Below, piece by piece: positions 7,620-48,739 of a DNA stretch of 64,000 bases (positions are counted from its first letter, which is position 1; every line of letters starts with the position of its first letter). A program made the position numbers and the translations under genes. Origin of the DNA: Balneola sp. Its GTDB lineage: Bacteria; Bacteroidota; Rhodothermia; Balneolales; Balneolaceae. The DNA lies in contig JAEPPZ010000008.1 of assembly GCA_017640785.1 (NCBI GenBank), forward strand, positions 62,001 through 126,000, in the 5' to 3' direction. The notes below the pieces were generated by a model. It saw only the letters and a program-made list of their open reading frames with translations. It did no database searches and was not told the origin of the DNA.

Positions 7620-9044
7620 ATGAGATTTAAAGCGATAAGCATACTATGTTTACTTTTTCTGATTGTTTCTTGCGGAAAAAGCACTGAAGTAACCATTGTT
7701 GATGATTCAAGTGGGATGTTACCCTCTGATAAAGCCGGCGATGCTACAAAAAGAGCCGAGGTTCAAGATGATTTTACAAATCTGAAGATCGGAGAATTAA
7801 ACAGCATTCAAACTTTAGATCCTCTTTTTGCAACTACAAGTAGTGAGTTCAGAATCAATGCTCTGATCTATGATGGCTTGACTCAAATCGACTCTAATGG
7901 AGATGTGAAACCGGCTATTGCTAAAAAATGGACCATAACCAGGGACTCCCTCAGATACACATTTACTTTGCGTGACAATTTATTCTATCACGATGATTCC
8001 AGATTTACAAGTGGTATTGGAAGACTAGTTACTCCCGAAGACATTGTTCTTAATTTTGAACGTATGGCGTCTATACTGGTACCCGATAATGCTGCAGACA
8101 TGTTTAAGTCCGTTAAAGGATTTAATGCATACCATACAGAGCAAACTTTTATAAAAATCCCTGCTAACAGGACGATCAAATCCATTGAGGGAATTTATAG
8201 CTCTAACGACTCAACTCTGGTCATTCAGCTTGCAAAGAAAGATTCAGAATTACTCGAAAAACTAGCTCATCCATGGGCTTCCGTTTATCCTAAAGAAAGT
8301 ATTCCCAACAATAACAATCCCATCACAGACCCTATCGGTACCGGCAGTTATTATCTGGCTCAGAAAAAAAACAACCTTTTAATTCTGGCGTCCAATGACG
8401 AATACTTTCAGGATCAAAAAGTTCCTACCAGATTAGATATTACACATGGAAAAACAGAAACCGAGCTCTATCAGGATTTTACGAATGGCAATCTGGATGC
8501 TTTAGTTGAACTCGGTCCAAACACTATACAGGAAGTTACTGATACTACGGGATCCGGAGATTTGAAATTTGAGACCTCTTTTTCCCTTTACGATCCAACC
8601 GTTAATAATGAGATCAACTTTTATTACAACCAGGCATCCGGAAATACATCACTATTCTCTTATTTAGTATCTCAGAACAACGACTTCCTCAGCTTTGAAA
8701 AAACACTTGGCTCTGTCGAGATCAAAAATAAACGCCCTTTTTCTGATAGTTTGAGAAAGCAAACAGCTTATATTTCCTACACAGGCAATCCTGCTGAAGT
8801 GTTCCTGATTGATGCTATTGCAGAAAAATTATCAGGCACCGGCGCTACCATCGTACTAAATTCATCCTACGCAATCACCGATGATATTTCATTTTCCACT
8901 ATCAGGTTCCCGGGTGCACAAAAAACTGTAAGCTGGAAGATGCCTGTTCTGGTTTTAACTCAACCAAACGTTTCAGGAACAACCATCTCCAAATATCCTT
9001 GGAATATCTCTTTTGATGGGGTAACTATTAATGAATCAAATTAA
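7620..9044 (+). CDS. Family 5 solute-binding lipoprotein (peptide-type ABC transporter)
   Basis: Resembles the DppA/OppA type of extracellular binding protein. The lipobox is LFLIVSC (about residues 12-18). It is followed by the family signature region: a mature N-terminus reading IQTLDPLFATTSSEFRINALIYDGL, then VKPAIAKKWTI and FTLRDNLFYHDD. At 474 residues it is somewhat short for the family, and the C-terminal half is divergent. No permease or ATPase gene is adjacent. It lies between ddl and nadK with tight spacing, so it may be transcribed with these. The ligand is unknown. Confidence 0.82.
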   Translation: MRFKAISILCLLFLIVSCGKSTEVTIVDDSSGMLPSDKAGDATKRAEVQDDFTNLKIGELNSIQTLDPLFATTSSEFRINALIYDGLTQIDSNGDVKPAIAKKWTITRDSLRYTFTLRDNLFYHDDSRFTSGIGRLVTPEDIVLNFERMASILVPDNAADMFKSVKGFNAYHTEQTFIKIPANRTIKSIEGIYSSNDSTLVIQLAKKDSELLEKLAHPWASVYPKESIPNNNNPITDPIGTGSYYLAQKKNNLLILASNDEYFQDQKVPTRLDITHGKTETELYQDFTNGNLDALVELGPNTIQEVTDTTGSGDLKFETSFSLYDPTVNNEINFYYNQASGNTSLFSYLVSQNNDFLSFEKTLGSVEIKNKRPFSDSLRKQTAYISYTGNPAEVFLIDAIAEKLSGTGATIVLNSSYAITDDISFSTIRFPGAQKTVSWKMPVLVLTQPNVSGTTISKYPWNISFDGVTINESN

Positions 9045-17702: not shown

Positions 17703-17706
17703 AAAG

Positions 17707-17790
17707 TGCTCACGAATGGAGTCGAACCATCACGACCGTTAAGTCACACGCCCCTCAAGCGTGCGCGTCTACCAATTCCGCCACGTGAGC
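17707..17790 (-). tRNA. tRNA-Leu (anticodon GAG)
   Basis: The reverse complement folds as a class II tRNA: acceptor stem GCTCACG/CGTGAGC, D-arm TGGCGGAATTGGTAGACGC, anticodon stem CACGC/GCGTG with loop TTGAGGG (anticodon GAG, reading CUC/CUU), a long variable arm, and T-arm loop TTCGACT with stem ATGG/CCAT. The discriminator base is A and the CCA end is not encoded. Its D-arm is useful for comparison with the tRNA-like RNA at 46894-47044. Confidence 0.95.
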
Positions 17791-43924: not shown

Positions 43925-44956
43925 TCACCTCTTTTCTGGAAAGTCCGGATTATCATAATGCGCAACAGCCACTCTCAGCTTCTTATCTATTCTGGTTACC
44001 AAAGCCTGTGGTGCTAATACTTTAACAGAGTCTCCGAATCCCAGAATTTTACTTTCCAATTCGAAGTTAAGCTGAACTTCCAGTGTAATAATTATCCCGC
44101 CTTTTACTTTGTCTACCAACTGTTGAGAGGGATGTATTGGTTTAGTTAAAACGTAAGGAGCATGATTGTATCCAACGAAAAGTCTTACTGTTCTCGGTTT
44201 CATATTTGGGCTGACCGTGACCCCAACTACATTTTTGTAATACTCTTTTGCATTCAGGTCTGTTTGAATATATTCTGATTTTTCTGCCTTTTTAATTTCT
44301 ATAATCCGATCTAAAGCAAGATTAATTGGATGAGATCCTTCTTTCTTGATGCCGATAACAAACCAACGGTTATTGTATTCTTTCAAAAACTGCGGATGAA
44401 ACTCAAATTCACCGGGCTGTCTGGCTCTGAAAGATTGGTAAGTAATTAAAAGCACCTGCTCTTTATGTACTGCCTGATACAAGTCATCCAAAAAGTGTAA
44501 ACCTTTTAAACCTTCGTTCTTTTCAAAGTCTATGATTGAACGGGAGTTTGTTTTGGTTGTATAGACCTTATCTTCAAGACGTTTGATCATATCGTCCATG
44601 TCATCAAAATGTGAAAAACCCTTGAATTGCTTCAAGACTTCGACAACCTCGTTCAAAGTTCCCATATCCTGATCAGTTAGTGGGATATTGGTGATAGAAT
44701 AGTCTGCATCTGTATAGGTGTAGTATTTTCTATCCTTCACTTCTATAGGAGCGTTGTAGCCAAGTTTATCCGACCTCATGATCTGAATATCACTTTGTAT
44801 AGTTCGCCTACTTACTCCTTTATCAATGCCTTCGTATTCATAAAGCGCTTCTGAACATTCATGAATAAGATCGTCAAGTGTCCAGAGTCGTTGCCTGTTT
44901 CTCAAACATTTGTCAATGGTTTTATAGCGAATTAAAGCATTTCTATTTGCAGGCAT
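43925..44956 (-). CDS. WYL-domain transcriptional regulator
   Basis: 343 residues. An N-terminal DNA-binding winged-helix-like part (about 1-90, RYKTIDKCLRNRQRLWTLDDLIHECSEALYEYEG, SRRTIQSDIQIMR) is followed by a WYL domain (about 170-245, LLITYQSFRARQPGEFEFHPQFLKEYNNRWFVIGI) and a WCX-like C-terminal region. WYL proteins sense nucleic-acid-type or nucleotide ligands and usually control DNA-damage or defence genes. It is divergent from the rsr gene, with a 104-base intergenic region holding a 22-bp element that recurs before rtcB. In the known rtcBA operons this place is taken by the sigma-54 activator RtcR. Confidence 0.88.
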   Translation of the reverse strand: MPANRNALIRYKTIDKCLRNRQRLWTLDDLIHECSEALYEYEGIDKGVSRRTIQSDIQIMRSDKLGYNAPIEVKDRKYYTYTDADYSITNIPLTDQDMGTLNEVVEVLKQFKGFSHFDDMDDMIKRLEDKVYTTKTNSRSIIDFEKNEGLKGLHFLDDLYQAVHKEQVLLITYQSFRARQPGEFEFHPQFLKEYNNRWFVIGIKKEGSHPINLALDRIIEIKKAEKSEYIQTDLNAKEYYKNVVGVTVSPNMKPRTVRLFVGYNHAPYVLTKPIHPSQQLVDKVKGGIIITLEVQLNFELESKILGFGDSVKVLAPQALVTRIDKKLRVAVAHYDNPDFPEKR

Positions 44957-44990: not shown

Positions 44991-45012
44991 AACTACGCAA
45001 AAAGGTTGCGCA
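44991..45012 (+). promoter_or_regulatory. 22-bp element upstream of rsr, copy 1
   Basis: AACTACGCAAAAAGG continues to TTGCGCA at 45012. It is 21/22 identical to 47240-47261, lies 48 bases before the rsr ATG and 34 bases from the WYL gene start, and has internal CGCAA/TTGCG dyad symmetry. Likely an operator or promoter element of this locus. Confidence 0.65.
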
Positions 45013-45060
45013 CTTCGCCATTATCATTCTTTCGAACAAGGAAACAAACTCCTCAGAATT

Positions 45061-46590
45061 ATGAAATTCAACATACTAACAAGAAAGAAAAAACAAGTTA
45101 TTAATTTCGAAGGTGCAAAAGCGATCAAGCTTTCACCAGAGATGGAATTATACAGCGCAGTTGTAACTTCAGGACTTGGAAACAAATTTTACACTTCTGA
45201 GGAAGAGAGAATCTCAAGAATCAGAGCTTTGATTTGCCAAACGGATCCTGAGTTTGTTGCTAAACTTGCCGTATACGCAAGAACCAAAATGAATCTTCGA
45301 TCTATTCCACTTGTGTTGATTACCGAATTGGCAAAGATCCACCAAGGAGACAGCTTGGTTAGCAATACTGTTACATCCGTAATCCAAAGAGCAGACGAAA
45401 TCACGGAATTGCTGGCTTGTTATACTTTAGCTAATGAAAGAACCGGCTATAAAAAACTAAACAAGCTTTCTAAACAAATTCAGAAAGGGTTAGGAAATTC
45501 TTTTAATCGTTTTGATGAATATCAATTCGCAAAATATGATCGCCAAACTGAGATCTCTTTAAAAGATGCATTGTTTTTGGTTCGCCCAAAAGCTAAAAGT
45601 GATTCCCAACAAGCAATTTTTGACAAAATTGCGGAAGAACAATTAGAAACCCCATACACATGGGAAGTCGAGTTATCTCAAACTGGGCAGGTAGACTATT
45701 CTACTCCTCAAGAGAAAGCTGACGCATTCCGCAATAAGTGGGAAGAGCTAATTGCGAGCAACAGGCTTGGATATATGGCACTACTTCGAAATATCAGAAA
45801 CATTCTGGAAGCCGGAGTGCGTGCTGAATACATTGAAATCGCCGGAAACAGAATACGAAGCGAAAGTGAAGTTGCGCGATCCAGACAATTGCCTTTTCGT
45901 TTTCTATCTGCATACAGAGAAATTCAAAAAGTGGAAAACGAATTCACTTCCTATTTTTTGGACTGCCTTGAAGAAGCCGTTAGTTATTCAATTTCTAATC
46001 TGAAAGGATTTGGATTGTATACCAAAATACTTATTGCGTGCGATGTATCAAGTTCTATGTATTGTCAGTTATCACCAAAGAGTAAAATCCGTTGTTATGA
46101 TATCGGATTACTACTTGGAATGTTAATGAACAGTAAAAGTAAGAATGTCATTACCGGAATATTTGGTAGCAAATGGAAACCATACTCATTGCCATCAAAA
46201 CAAATTCTGGCCAATACACAATTGCTTAATAGCATTGAAGGAAGTGTAGGTTACTCCACAAACGGATTTAAAGTGATCTCATCACTTATCAAAAAAGGTA
46301 AAGTAGTTGATAAGGTAATGATGTTTACTGACTGTCAAATGTGGGATAGCTCAGGAGGCCAAAACTCGATCCAAAAATTATGGAAAGAGTATAAAGCCAC
46401 GATTGCACCTAGCGCGAAGCTTTATTTATTTGACCTTGCCGGATATGGAAATACCCCTCTGAGAGTTGAGCAGAATGATGTTTTTCTTATCGCCGGCTGG
46501 TCGGACAAAATATTTGACGTATTGACCGCTCTTGAAAATGGCGAAAGCACGCTTTCCCAAATAAAGAGCATAAAATTAAACTCCGATTAA
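45061..46590 (+). CDS. rsr: Ro60-like RNA-binding protein (TROVE and vWA domains)
   Basis: 509 residues. The N-terminal TROVE HEAT-like ring (about 1-300) contains LAVYARTKMNLRSIPLVLITELAK, ADEITELLACYTLANERTG and RFLSAYREIQ. The C-terminal vWA domain starts near 325 and has the MIDAS motif D328-V-S330-S-S332 in ACDVSSSMYC. Ro60/Rsr proteins bind Y RNAs and misfolded or damaged RNAs; this one sits directly before five Y-RNA-like genes and an RtcB RNA ligase gene and is divergent from a WYL regulator. A terminator-like hairpin overlaps its stop codon. Confidence 0.93.
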   Translation: MKFNILTRKKKQVINFEGAKAIKLSPEMELYSAVVTSGLGNKFYTSEEERISRIRALICQTDPEFVAKLAVYARTKMNLRSIPLVLITELAKIHQGDSLVSNTVTSVIQRADEITELLACYTLANERTGYKKLNKLSKQIQKGLGNSFNRFDEYQFAKYDRQTEISLKDALFLVRPKAKSDSQQAIFDKIAEEQLETPYTWEVELSQTGQVDYSTPQEKADAFRNKWEELIASNRLGYMALLRNIRNILEAGVRAEYIEIAGNRIRSESEVARSRQLPFRFLSAYREIQKVENEFTSYFLDCLEEAVSYSISNLKGFGLYTKILIACDVSSSMYCQLSPKSKIRCYDIGLLLGMLMNSKSKNVITGIFGSKWKPYSLPSKQILANTQLLNSIEGSVGYSTNGFKVISSLIKKGKVVDKVMMFTDCQMWDSSGGQNSIQKLWKEYKATIAPSAKLYLFDLAGYGNTPLRVEQNDVFLIAGWSDKIFDVLTALENGESTLSQIKSIKLNSD

Positions 46591-46605
46591 ATTCGGAGTT
46601 CTTTT
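46579..46605 (+). terminator. Terminator-like hairpin overlapping the rsr stop codon
   Basis: AACTCCGA (46579-46586) pairs with TCGGAGTT (46593-46600) around a six-base loop, followed by CTTTTT. It overlaps the last codons of rsr and the first base of the closing stem of the first Y RNA, so it may be a terminator, a processing site, or an alternative structure competing with that RNA. Confidence 0.6.
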
Positions 46606-46728
46606 TGGATGTTGTAGAGTTAAGATACTTCGCGCCAATCAATGGGGAGGATATAACCAAAGAGTTATACCGGGTTCAACTCCCGGCAAGCAATGCCCTG
46701 CTCTTAACCCGAATGTCGCTCCAAAAAG
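46601..46728 (+). ncRNA. Y RNA-like ncRNA 1 (T-arm-bearing)
   Basis: Closing stem 46601-46609 with 46720-46728 (9 bp, CTTTTTGGA/TCCAAAAAG); conserved internal loop TGTTGTAG / GAATGTCGC; upper stem GTTAAGA/TCTTAAC at 46619-46625 and 46702-46708; then the shared TACTTCG at 46626-46632. The insert has a hairpin TATAAC/GTTATA at 46652-46669 and a perfect T-arm with CCGGG/CCCGG stem and 7-base TTCAACT loop at 46670-46686. Only part of the tRNA fold is recognisable. A GTTTTTATT tail follows. Confidence 0.78.
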
Positions 46729-46742
46729 GTTTTTATTGATTT

Positions 46743-46876
46743 GATTGAGTGTTGTAGATGAGTCTTACTTCGCCTATTCCGCGCATGGTCGCTGGTTCGA
46801 ACCCAGCCTCTGAAGAAATTCAGAGTAGCTCAGTTGGTAGAGCATGTTATGTGGCTCATCGCCTGTTACCTCAATC
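46743..46876 (+). ncRNA. yrlA: Y RNA-like ncRNA 2 (circularly permuted tRNA mimic, YrlA type)
   Basis: Closing stem GATTGAG/CTCAATC (46743-46749 with 46870-46876), core TGTTGTAG / GCCTGTTAC, upper stem GATGAGTC/GGCTCATC with the loop bases slightly reordered, then TACTTCG at 46766-46772. The insert runs T-arm (GCTGG-TTCGAAC-CCAGC, 46791-46807), a 7-bp acceptor-like hairpin closed by GAAA (46808-46825), TA, and an intact D-arm GCTC-AGTTGGTA-GAGC (46828-46843). That is a tRNA with its ends joined and opened in the anticodon arm, the architecture known for YrlA Y RNAs. Confidence 0.87.
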
Positions 46877-46893
46877 TTTATTTATTGAATAAA

Positions 46894-47044
46894 AATAAGG
46901 TGCTGTAGACTGGAAATACTTCGGCAGACGCAATCGGTTTATAAACCGATTCTCTCTTAATTGAGAGGTGCAGGTTCAAGTCCTGCTTCAGTTATTTTTA
47001 ACTGAATGGCGGAAAATACATTCCTATCGCTTGTAGCCCTTATT
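46894..47044 (+). ncRNA. Y RNA-like ncRNA 3 (circularly permuted tRNA-Leu mimic)
   Basis: Closing stem AATAAGG/CCTTATT (46894-46900 with 47038-47044), core TGCTGTAG / GCTTGTAGC, upper stem with two mismatches, and TACTTCG at 46917-46923. The insert reads D-arm 3' half GGCAGACGC (46923-46931), anticodon-like palindrome (46932-46951), variable arm CTCTC-TTAATT-GAGAG (46952-46967), T-arm GCAGG-TTCAAGT-CCTGC (46970-46986), an 8-bp hairpin closed by TTTT replacing the acceptor ends (46987-47006), then D-arm 5' half TGGCGGAA (47007-47014). GCG at 47009-47011 pairs with CGC at 46929-46931, as in the tRNA-Leu at 17707. Confidence 0.87.
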
Positions 47045-47052
47045 GATTTTTT

Positions 47053-47162
47053 AAAAGAAAAGGTGCCGTAGAGTCAGCGTACTTCGATGGCTTGAAATCC
47101 CGGAAACGGGTAAGTCCGGTTCGAATCCGGTTAGGCTGATTTGATTGTCGCCCTTTTCTTTT
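47053..47162 (+). ncRNA. Y RNA-like ncRNA 4 (T-arm-bearing)
   Basis: Closing stem of 11 bp (47053-47063 with 47152-47162), core TGCCGTAG / GATTGTCGC, upper stem AGTCAGC/GCTGATT at 47072-47078 and 47135-47141, TACTTCG at 47080-47086. The insert carries a CCCG-GAAA-CGGG hairpin (47099-47110) and a 4-bp T-arm CCGG-TTCGAAT-CCGG at 47116-47130, with no clear D-arm. Confidence 0.82.
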
Positions 47163-47170
47163 CAATATAT

Positions 47171-47228
47171 CCAAAGTGTTGTTGAATAAAGATACTTCTG
47201 AAAAGCTTTATTCGGATGTCGCCTTTGG
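47171..47228 (+). ncRNA. Y RNA-like ncRNA 5 (minimal stem-loop)
   Basis: 58 nt: closing stem CCAAAG/CTTTGG (47171-47176 with 47223-47228), core TGTTGTTG / GGATGTCGC, upper stem GAATAAAG/CTTTATTC (47184-47191 with 47206-47213), and a 14-base loop holding TACTTCT. It has the Ro-binding-stem-like core but no tRNA-like insert. A short reading frame starting at 47176 overlaps this RNA and is not supported as a gene. Confidence 0.82.
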
Positions 47229-47239
47229 TTTTAATTTCC

Positions 47240-47261
47240 AACTACGCAAAAAGATTGCGCA
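47240..47261 (+). promoter_or_regulatory. 22-bp element upstream of rtcB, copy 2
   Basis: 21 of 22 bases match 44991-45012 (the difference is an A for G inside AAAAAGATTGCG). It lies directly after the fifth Y RNA and 98 bases before the rtcB start codon. Confidence 0.65.
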
Positions 47262-47266
47262 GTCAT

Positions 47267-47353: not shown

Positions 47354-48739
<1,386 letters not shown>

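Follow-up and report, generated by a model that had tools for sequence, protein, structure and literature searches.

The window analysed here is a stretch of 64,000 nucleotides from a Balneola sp. genome (contig JAEPPZ010000008.1, positions 62,001 to 126,000), which contains a Ro60 gene followed, on the plus strand, by an array of small RNAs (46602-47229) and by the RNA ligase gene rtcB, with a divergently oriented regulator gene on the other side. The array between Ro60 and rtcB consists of five tandem Y-RNA units, of which the third (46894-47044) is the subject of this work. In our estimate, with a probability of about 0.8, unit 3 would be a Y RNA whose head mimics a tRNA-Leu that has been circularly permuted in the D-loop, the loop being replaced by a stem of the Ro60-binding type. 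The features of the locus are the following:

43925-44956, minus strand: WYL-domain (plus WCX) gene, divergent, presumed regulator of the Ro60 locus (Pfam WYL 5.5e-11, WCX 5.8e-09)
45061-46590, plus strand: Ro60 (Rsr-like) gene, 509 amino acids, TROVE and Ro60 vWA domains (Pfam TROVE 2.1e-26, vWA_Ro60 3.2e-09)
46602-46730, plus strand: Y-RNA unit 1, Deinococcus type (full-length RF01053 match, 39.6 bits, E 1.9e-05, below the gathering score; Y motif at 46610)
46743-46876, plus strand: Y-RNA unit 2, YrlA type, tRNA mimic opened in the anticodon arm (RF02553, 37.9 bits, E 1.2e-06; Y motif at 46750)
46894-47044, plus strand: Y-RNA unit 3, probable tRNA-Leu-like mimic permuted in the D-loop (end-to-end alignment to model R1, see below; six Balneolaceae genomes)
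47056-47159, plus strand: Y-RNA unit 4, Y stem, D-loop-like GG-CTTGAA, hairpin and T arm (Y motif at 47064)
47171-47229, plus strand: Y-RNA unit 5, bare Y stem with no tRNA-like head (predicted fold; Y motif at 47177)
47360-48739, plus strand: rtcB, divergent RNA ligase (Pfam RtcB 1.6e-34)

All five units open with the motif TGNYGTNGAN7TACTTC, which has five matches in the window and none in shuffled sequences, and six matches in the whole Balneola genome, five of them in the array. Units 1 and 2 match Rfam models of Y RNAs. Unit 3 shows two hallmarks of this family, a long terminal stem with the shared Ro60-type motif and a Ro60 gene directly upstream, an arrangement that is also found in its relatives.

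Layout and topology of unit 3

The ends of the RNA are set exactly by the outer Y stem, in which AAUAAGG (46894-46900) pairs with CCUUAUU (47038-47044), in agreement with the coordinates proposed by a first-pass annotation of this DNA. The order of arms given there, from the D-arm 3′ half to the D-arm 5′ half, was recovered by reading of the sequence and by alignment to R1:

46894-46922, plus strand: Y stem, 5′ strand; outer part 46894-46900, motif TGCTGTAGACTGGAAATACTTC at 46901-46922 (motif in all five units; fold)
46923-46931, plus strand: D-arm 3′ half GGCAGACGC; G18G19 at 46923-46924, D-stem CGC at 46929-46931 (R1 alignment; like genuine tRNA-Leu)
46932-46951, plus strand: anticodon-like arm, perfect 20-base palindrome AATCGGTTTATAAACCGATT with no canonical 7-nucleotide loop (folds)
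46952-46967, plus strand: long variable arm CTCTC-TTAATT-GAGAG, a class-II tRNA feature
46970-46986, plus strand: T arm GCAGG-TTCAAGT-CCTGC (R1 alignment; covariation)
46987-47006, plus strand: acceptor stem sealed as a hairpin TTCAGTTATTTTTAACTGAA, 7-8 base pairs (fold; covariation)
47007-47016, plus strand: positions 8-9 and D-arm 5′ half TGGCGGAAAA (R1 alignment; D-stem covariation)
47017-47044, plus strand: Y stem, 3′ strand; inner UUCC 47021-47024, outer CCUUAUU 47038-47044 (fold)

Positions 8-9 and the D-arm 5′ half, UGGCGGAA, thus come last before the 3′ strand of the Y stem, with TGGCGGAA at 47007-47014, where GCG (47009-47011) complements CGC (46929-46931) at the other end of the head. 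The genuine tRNA-Leu(GAG) of the window (17706-17790) carries TGGCGGAATTGGTAGACGC, and the D halves of unit 3 are of this tRNA-Leu type, so the earlier suggestion that the rejoined ends resemble the genuine tRNA-Leu holds. Once the D-loop ends of the unit were joined and its acceptor hairpin was opened, ARAGORN called a tRNA with every arm, as it did for none of 500 full dinucleotide shuffles and for 22 of 500 sequences in which only the D/anticodon/variable part had been shuffled; among the ten distinct units tested in rejoined form, six were called. One detail needs correction: unit 3 reads GGCA rather than GGUA, so it lacks the usual dihydrouridine target U20, which is present in the relatives L012-L014. 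We would therefore predict that dihydrouridine 20 is excluded in unit 3, since a C occupies that position, and that pseudouridine 55 is possible. As to a tertiary elbow and TruB/Dus modification like those of YrlA, unit 3 has the TTCAA T loop and G18G19 and does not have U20.

On the other hand, what makes a tRNA functional is lacking in unit 3, which has a palindromic arm instead of a 7-nucleotide loop and a sealed acceptor, and the plain tRNA model RF00005 gives 26.2 bits, under its gathering score of 29. Nor does it fit the known permuted Y RNA: it is absent from the matches to RF02553 (YrlA) even at an E value of 5, and the YrlA order (T arm, acceptor hairpin, intact D arm) is replaced by a head that starts and ends with D-arm halves.

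The site of the permutation was addressed with covariance models trained only on genuine Balneola tRNAs and permuted in silico at the D-loop (R1), the anticodon loop (R2) or the T-loop (R3). With filters off, unit 3 scores 36.2 bits with R1, 24.4 with R2 and 9.0 with R3, and only R1 places both of its D halves, in an alignment that runs end to end from G18 to the 5′ side of the D-loop and treats the variable arm as an insertion. Unit 2 shows the opposite ranking (59.0 bits with R2 vs 45.9 with R1), which bears out the proposed contrast between an anticodon-arm-opened unit 2 and a third unit in which the Y stem takes the place of the D-loop, a substitution on which sequence, topology models and comparative data agree.

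The D-loop-opened form in relatives

A scan of bacterial genomes by Ro60 alignment found 443 Ro60 loci, from which 80 Bacteroidota loci were kept. Six Balneolaceae genomes from two genera (L010-L014 and the window), with Ro60 identities of 70-97%, have a D-loop-opened third unit, which holds its position in the array in all of them. In the second genus, the anticodon-position, variable and acceptor arms are very different in sequence and are still hairpins: the anticodon-position arm of L012-L014 has another sequence with its hairpin retained, and the variable-arm stems of the relatives read CCTTG/CAAGG and ATCT/AGAT. Six further Bacteroidota loci contain D-loop-opened mimics on class-I tRNA backbones (L019 Saprospiraceae, L027 Bacteroidetes, L037 Cytophagales, L042 Bacteroidetes, L057 Niastella and L081 Sphingobacteriales). 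These units start with TACTTC-GGTAGAGC or a close variant, followed by the T arm, the acceptor hairpin and TAGCTCAG or a close variant. The same permutation, which the first-pass annotation had proposed looking for in relatives, is thus found in a total of 12 Bacteroidota genomes, with compensatory changes such as the D stem of L037, GAAC/GTTC vs GAGC/GCTC.

Covariation was measured over 13 pairs of the D, T and acceptor stems in ten distinct units, where 96.9% of the cells are paired, as compared to 74.9 ± 2.4 in shuffles, 28 cells differ on both sides (9.3 ± 2.2 in shuffles) and the covariation score reaches 0.706 (0.260 ± 0.041 in shuffles). When partners were slid by one to three columns, pairing fell to 55% or less. 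The covarying pairs of the D stem are AU/CG and GC/AU, and in the acceptor hairpin all four outer pairs vary on both sides among units. This recurrence, in twelve Bacteroidota genomes, of one layout with co-changing paired bases is the reason to regard the D-loop-opened form as a real variant.

Several points weigh against this interpretation of unit 3. Its minimum free energy structure does not contain the D stem, and enforcing it costs 2.6 kcal/mol; among the ten units the D stem is in the minimum free energy structure of five, and elsewhere it costs 2.7 kcal/mol or less. The stems in the covariation test were chosen by eye, and a test of stems chosen by reading leans toward the proposed structure; the D halves had first been picked by their sequence next to the Y motif and the T arm, independently of complementarity. 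Genuine unpermuted tRNAs reach 27-52 bits with R1 through the arms that they share with it, so the R1 score as sole proof of permutation was dropped, with genuine tRNAs of the same genome in that range, and the topology ranking and the end-to-end alignment were used instead. Finally, ARAGORN also calls unit 3 in its native order, as a tRNA-??? at 46908-46994, in which a strand of the Y stem would be the 5′ strand of the acceptor and GACTGGA/TTCAGTT pairs at 7/7 positions, as expected for an ordinary or decayed contiguous tRNA gene. Such a gene is nonetheless very improbable, since its D arm would be poor and nearly absent and the arms covary in the permuted form. The pairing of GACTGGA with TTCAGTT, moreover, exists only in near-identical Balneola copies, on which ground the contiguous gene was rejected: L012-L014 and all class-I units pair at 4-5/7 scattered positions and receive no such ARAGORN call.

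A D-loop-permuted Y RNA also has to be weighed against a permuted precursor of a working tRNA, from which the Y stem would be excised and whose D-loop ends RtcB would join to give mature tRNA-Leu. The topology equals that of the type I permuted tRNA genes of Cyanidioschyzon merolae, with the 3′ half before the 5′ half and a helix at a D-loop junction (position 20/21; PMC3978253), and an RtcB ligase gene adjoins the array. Those genes, however, encode precursors of working tRNAs, whereas unit 3 has no usable anticodon, as is also the case for its Balneolaceae relatives, has no acceptor ends and conserves a Ro60-type stem. The anticodon-position arm is the 20-base palindrome announced by the first-pass annotation (46932-46951), it is tetraloop-like in relatives, and its loops range from about 3 to 9 nucleotides among homologues. 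In addition, a loop of 4-6 nucleotides joins the acceptor strands, CCA and leader are both absent, genuine tRNA-Leu genes exist, and units 4 and 5 use the same stem yet have no tRNA to release. To our knowledge, splicing endonucleases of the bulge-helix-bulge type are not known in bacteria. Despite the adjoining rtcB, the sealed acceptor and the loop sizes leave this precursor the least probable of the explanations considered. As the anticodon loop is non-canonical and is not maintained, and the acceptor is sealed, unit 3 as a Y RNA should be neither charged nor used in decoding, in line with the earlier expectation that it should not decode.

A pattern scan of 394 Bacteroidota genomes returned the six Balneolaceae only, with no match in the reversed control; phage records gave just 33-base T-arm matches to phage tRNA-Lys genes, and viral contigs a single pattern match, an ordinary tRNA. 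Three R1 candidates (L034 at 8312, L024 at 7000 and L019 at 8613) proved to be genuine tRNAs. An automatic rule for D-loop-opened units retrieved five units only, and its shuffled control had an equally high maximum (mean 1.5); as the tRNA consensus is common to most D halves, the rule gave way to curated units and pair counts. Two loci deserve a separate mention. The fifth place of the L012 array is occupied by a second YrlA-like unit, after which the bases do not read as the rtcB start of the other Balneolaceae loci. In L037, an Rfam tRNA call (7910-7984, 31.4 bits) lies across the start of the D-loop-opened Y RNA and apparently takes the Y-stem strand GTTACTTCGG for a D arm, so mis-annotation of such units as tRNAs is possible.

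Other features of the Ro60 loci

The five units of the array represent five designs (Deinococcus type, YrlA, D-loop-opened, reduced elbow and bare stem), and units 1-4 keep the same order in the second Balneolaceae genus. Unit 4 has neither acceptor hairpin nor D-arm 5′ half. Units of its type, seen in the window, L012-L014, L019, L029, L038, L045, L046 and L056 (9 of 76 loci under a strict rule), carry GG(C/T)(T)GAA right after the Y stem, like the D-loop of tRNA-Ser, then one hairpin and a T arm, usually without the other two elements, and could be a minimal D-loop/T-loop elbow.

The locus resembles the rsr-yrlBA-rtcBA operon of Salmonella (PMC7790460) in bringing together a Ro60 orthologue, Y RNAs and RtcB, and differs from it in three respects: the adjacent regulator is of the WYL type and not RtcR, the Y RNAs number five, each of its own kind, and RtcB is divergent. 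This RtcB (47360-48739) is the only match to the family in the whole Balneola genome. The WYL regulator occurs in 39 of the 80 related loci. An inverted repeat, CTACGCAAAAAGRTTGCGCA(C/G), is found twice in the window and never in shuffles, once in the gap between the WYL regulator and Ro60 (44993-45013) and once between Y unit 5 and rtcB (47242-47262), with related copies upstream of Ro60 in L012, L013, L017, L041, L056 and L062; the WYL regulator may use this repeat as its operator. Besides Ro60 and Y RNAs, 11 of the 80 Bacteroidota loci (L026, L027, L031, L032, L033, L035, L047, L057, L065, L068 and L087) contain 5 to 18 tRNA genes, as if spare tRNAs were kept in an RNA-repair locus.

The Ro60 protein of the window is 97% identical to those of Balneola sp. 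EhC07 and of a Balneola metagenome-assembled genome. Although its nearest copies are those of Balneolaceae, it is about 62% identical to the Saprospiraceae proteins, and the gene is present in only 6 of 92 Balneolaceae genomes and 2 of 21 genera, which together hint at horizontal transfer.

Possible role and significance of the permuted mimic

Among known systems, the closest to unit 3 is YrlA (RF02553; PDB 6CU1), itself a circular permutation of a tRNA (PMC11472068, ARTEMIS). Both have a Ro60-type Y stem, a permuted tRNA-like head with a T arm, the GG of the D-loop, a sealed acceptor hairpin, and a location near Ro60 and RtcB. YrlA, however, is opened in the anticodon arm and has an intact D arm, whereas in unit 3 the opening lies in the D-loop, and a hairpin at the anticodon position is retained together with a long variable arm. 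The Y RNA of Deinococcus radiodurans (RF01053), to whose type unit 1 belongs, shares with unit 3 the Y stem, the Ro60 partner and a T-arm-like hairpin, and lacks the full permuted tRNA layout flanked by D-arm halves.

In bacteria, a Y RNA tethers Ro60 to PNPase in Deinococcus, and TruB and DusA recognise YrlA through its tRNA-like part (PMC8394870, PMC7790460). Judging from the motif and from the adjoining gene, the Y stem of unit 3 would hold Ro60. The point at which this stem enters the fold would lie between residues 17 and 18, so that it leaves from the elbow, in contrast to YrlA, where it leaves from the anticodon end, and this should place Ro60 on another side of the mimic. Since unit 3 retains both G18G19 and the T loop, a D-loop/T-loop elbow is still expected, and the RNA would present this elbow and the acceptor-T arm to a tRNA-binding partner, by analogy with YrlA. 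It could then work in the way proposed for YrlA, as a tether and gate through which an effector that recognises tRNAs, here perhaps RtcB, reaches Ro60, with the tRNA face in a different orientation; we give such a function about even odds.

A different function for the same structure would be that of a decoy, in which the mimic absorbs an enzyme that attacks or modifies tRNAs, such as an anticodon nuclease, sparing the tRNAs under stress, and Ro60 only stabilises it. Hughes et al. 2020 proposed YrlA as a possible competitive inhibitor of anticodon nuclease (PMC7790460), RtcB is encoded in the locus, and the D-loop-opened form retains, unlike YrlA, a hairpin at the anticodon position. However, one would expect a nuclease decoy to have preserved the 7-nucleotide loop, whereas the anticodon loops of D-loop-opened units vary in size and sequence and rarely resemble it, which makes a decoy unlikely. 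Going back to the tether, a broader and more tentative proposal is that the Ro60 arrays of Bacteroidota use tRNA mimics opened at the anticodon arm, at the D-loop, or reduced to a D-loop/T-arm form as orientation adaptors, through which one Ro60 might offer different tRNA faces to different effectors; the D-loop opening may in that case have appeared on two or more tRNA backbones (Leu-like and class I).

The first-pass annotation considered a permutation at this site in a Y RNA to be new. That Y RNAs can be permuted at all is already known from YrlA, a circular permutation of a tRNA, and it is the D-loop site for which our literature search found no report, the primary papers (Chen 2014, Wang 2018, Sim 2020) being outside its coverage. 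As far as could be checked, D-loop opening is thus a new variant of tRNA permutation in Y RNAs, and one that standard annotation misses, as unit 3 has no Rfam Y RNA listing and ARAGORN gives "tRNA-???". A second opening point, beside YrlA in one array, would mean that more than one loop of the tRNA fold can serve as the point of entry. In any case, such a unit, in which the elbow and the acceptor-T arm are kept and the anticodon end is lost, would be a natural experiment on the features that Ro60 partners recognise, and it predicts a Ro60 particle with a different geometry.
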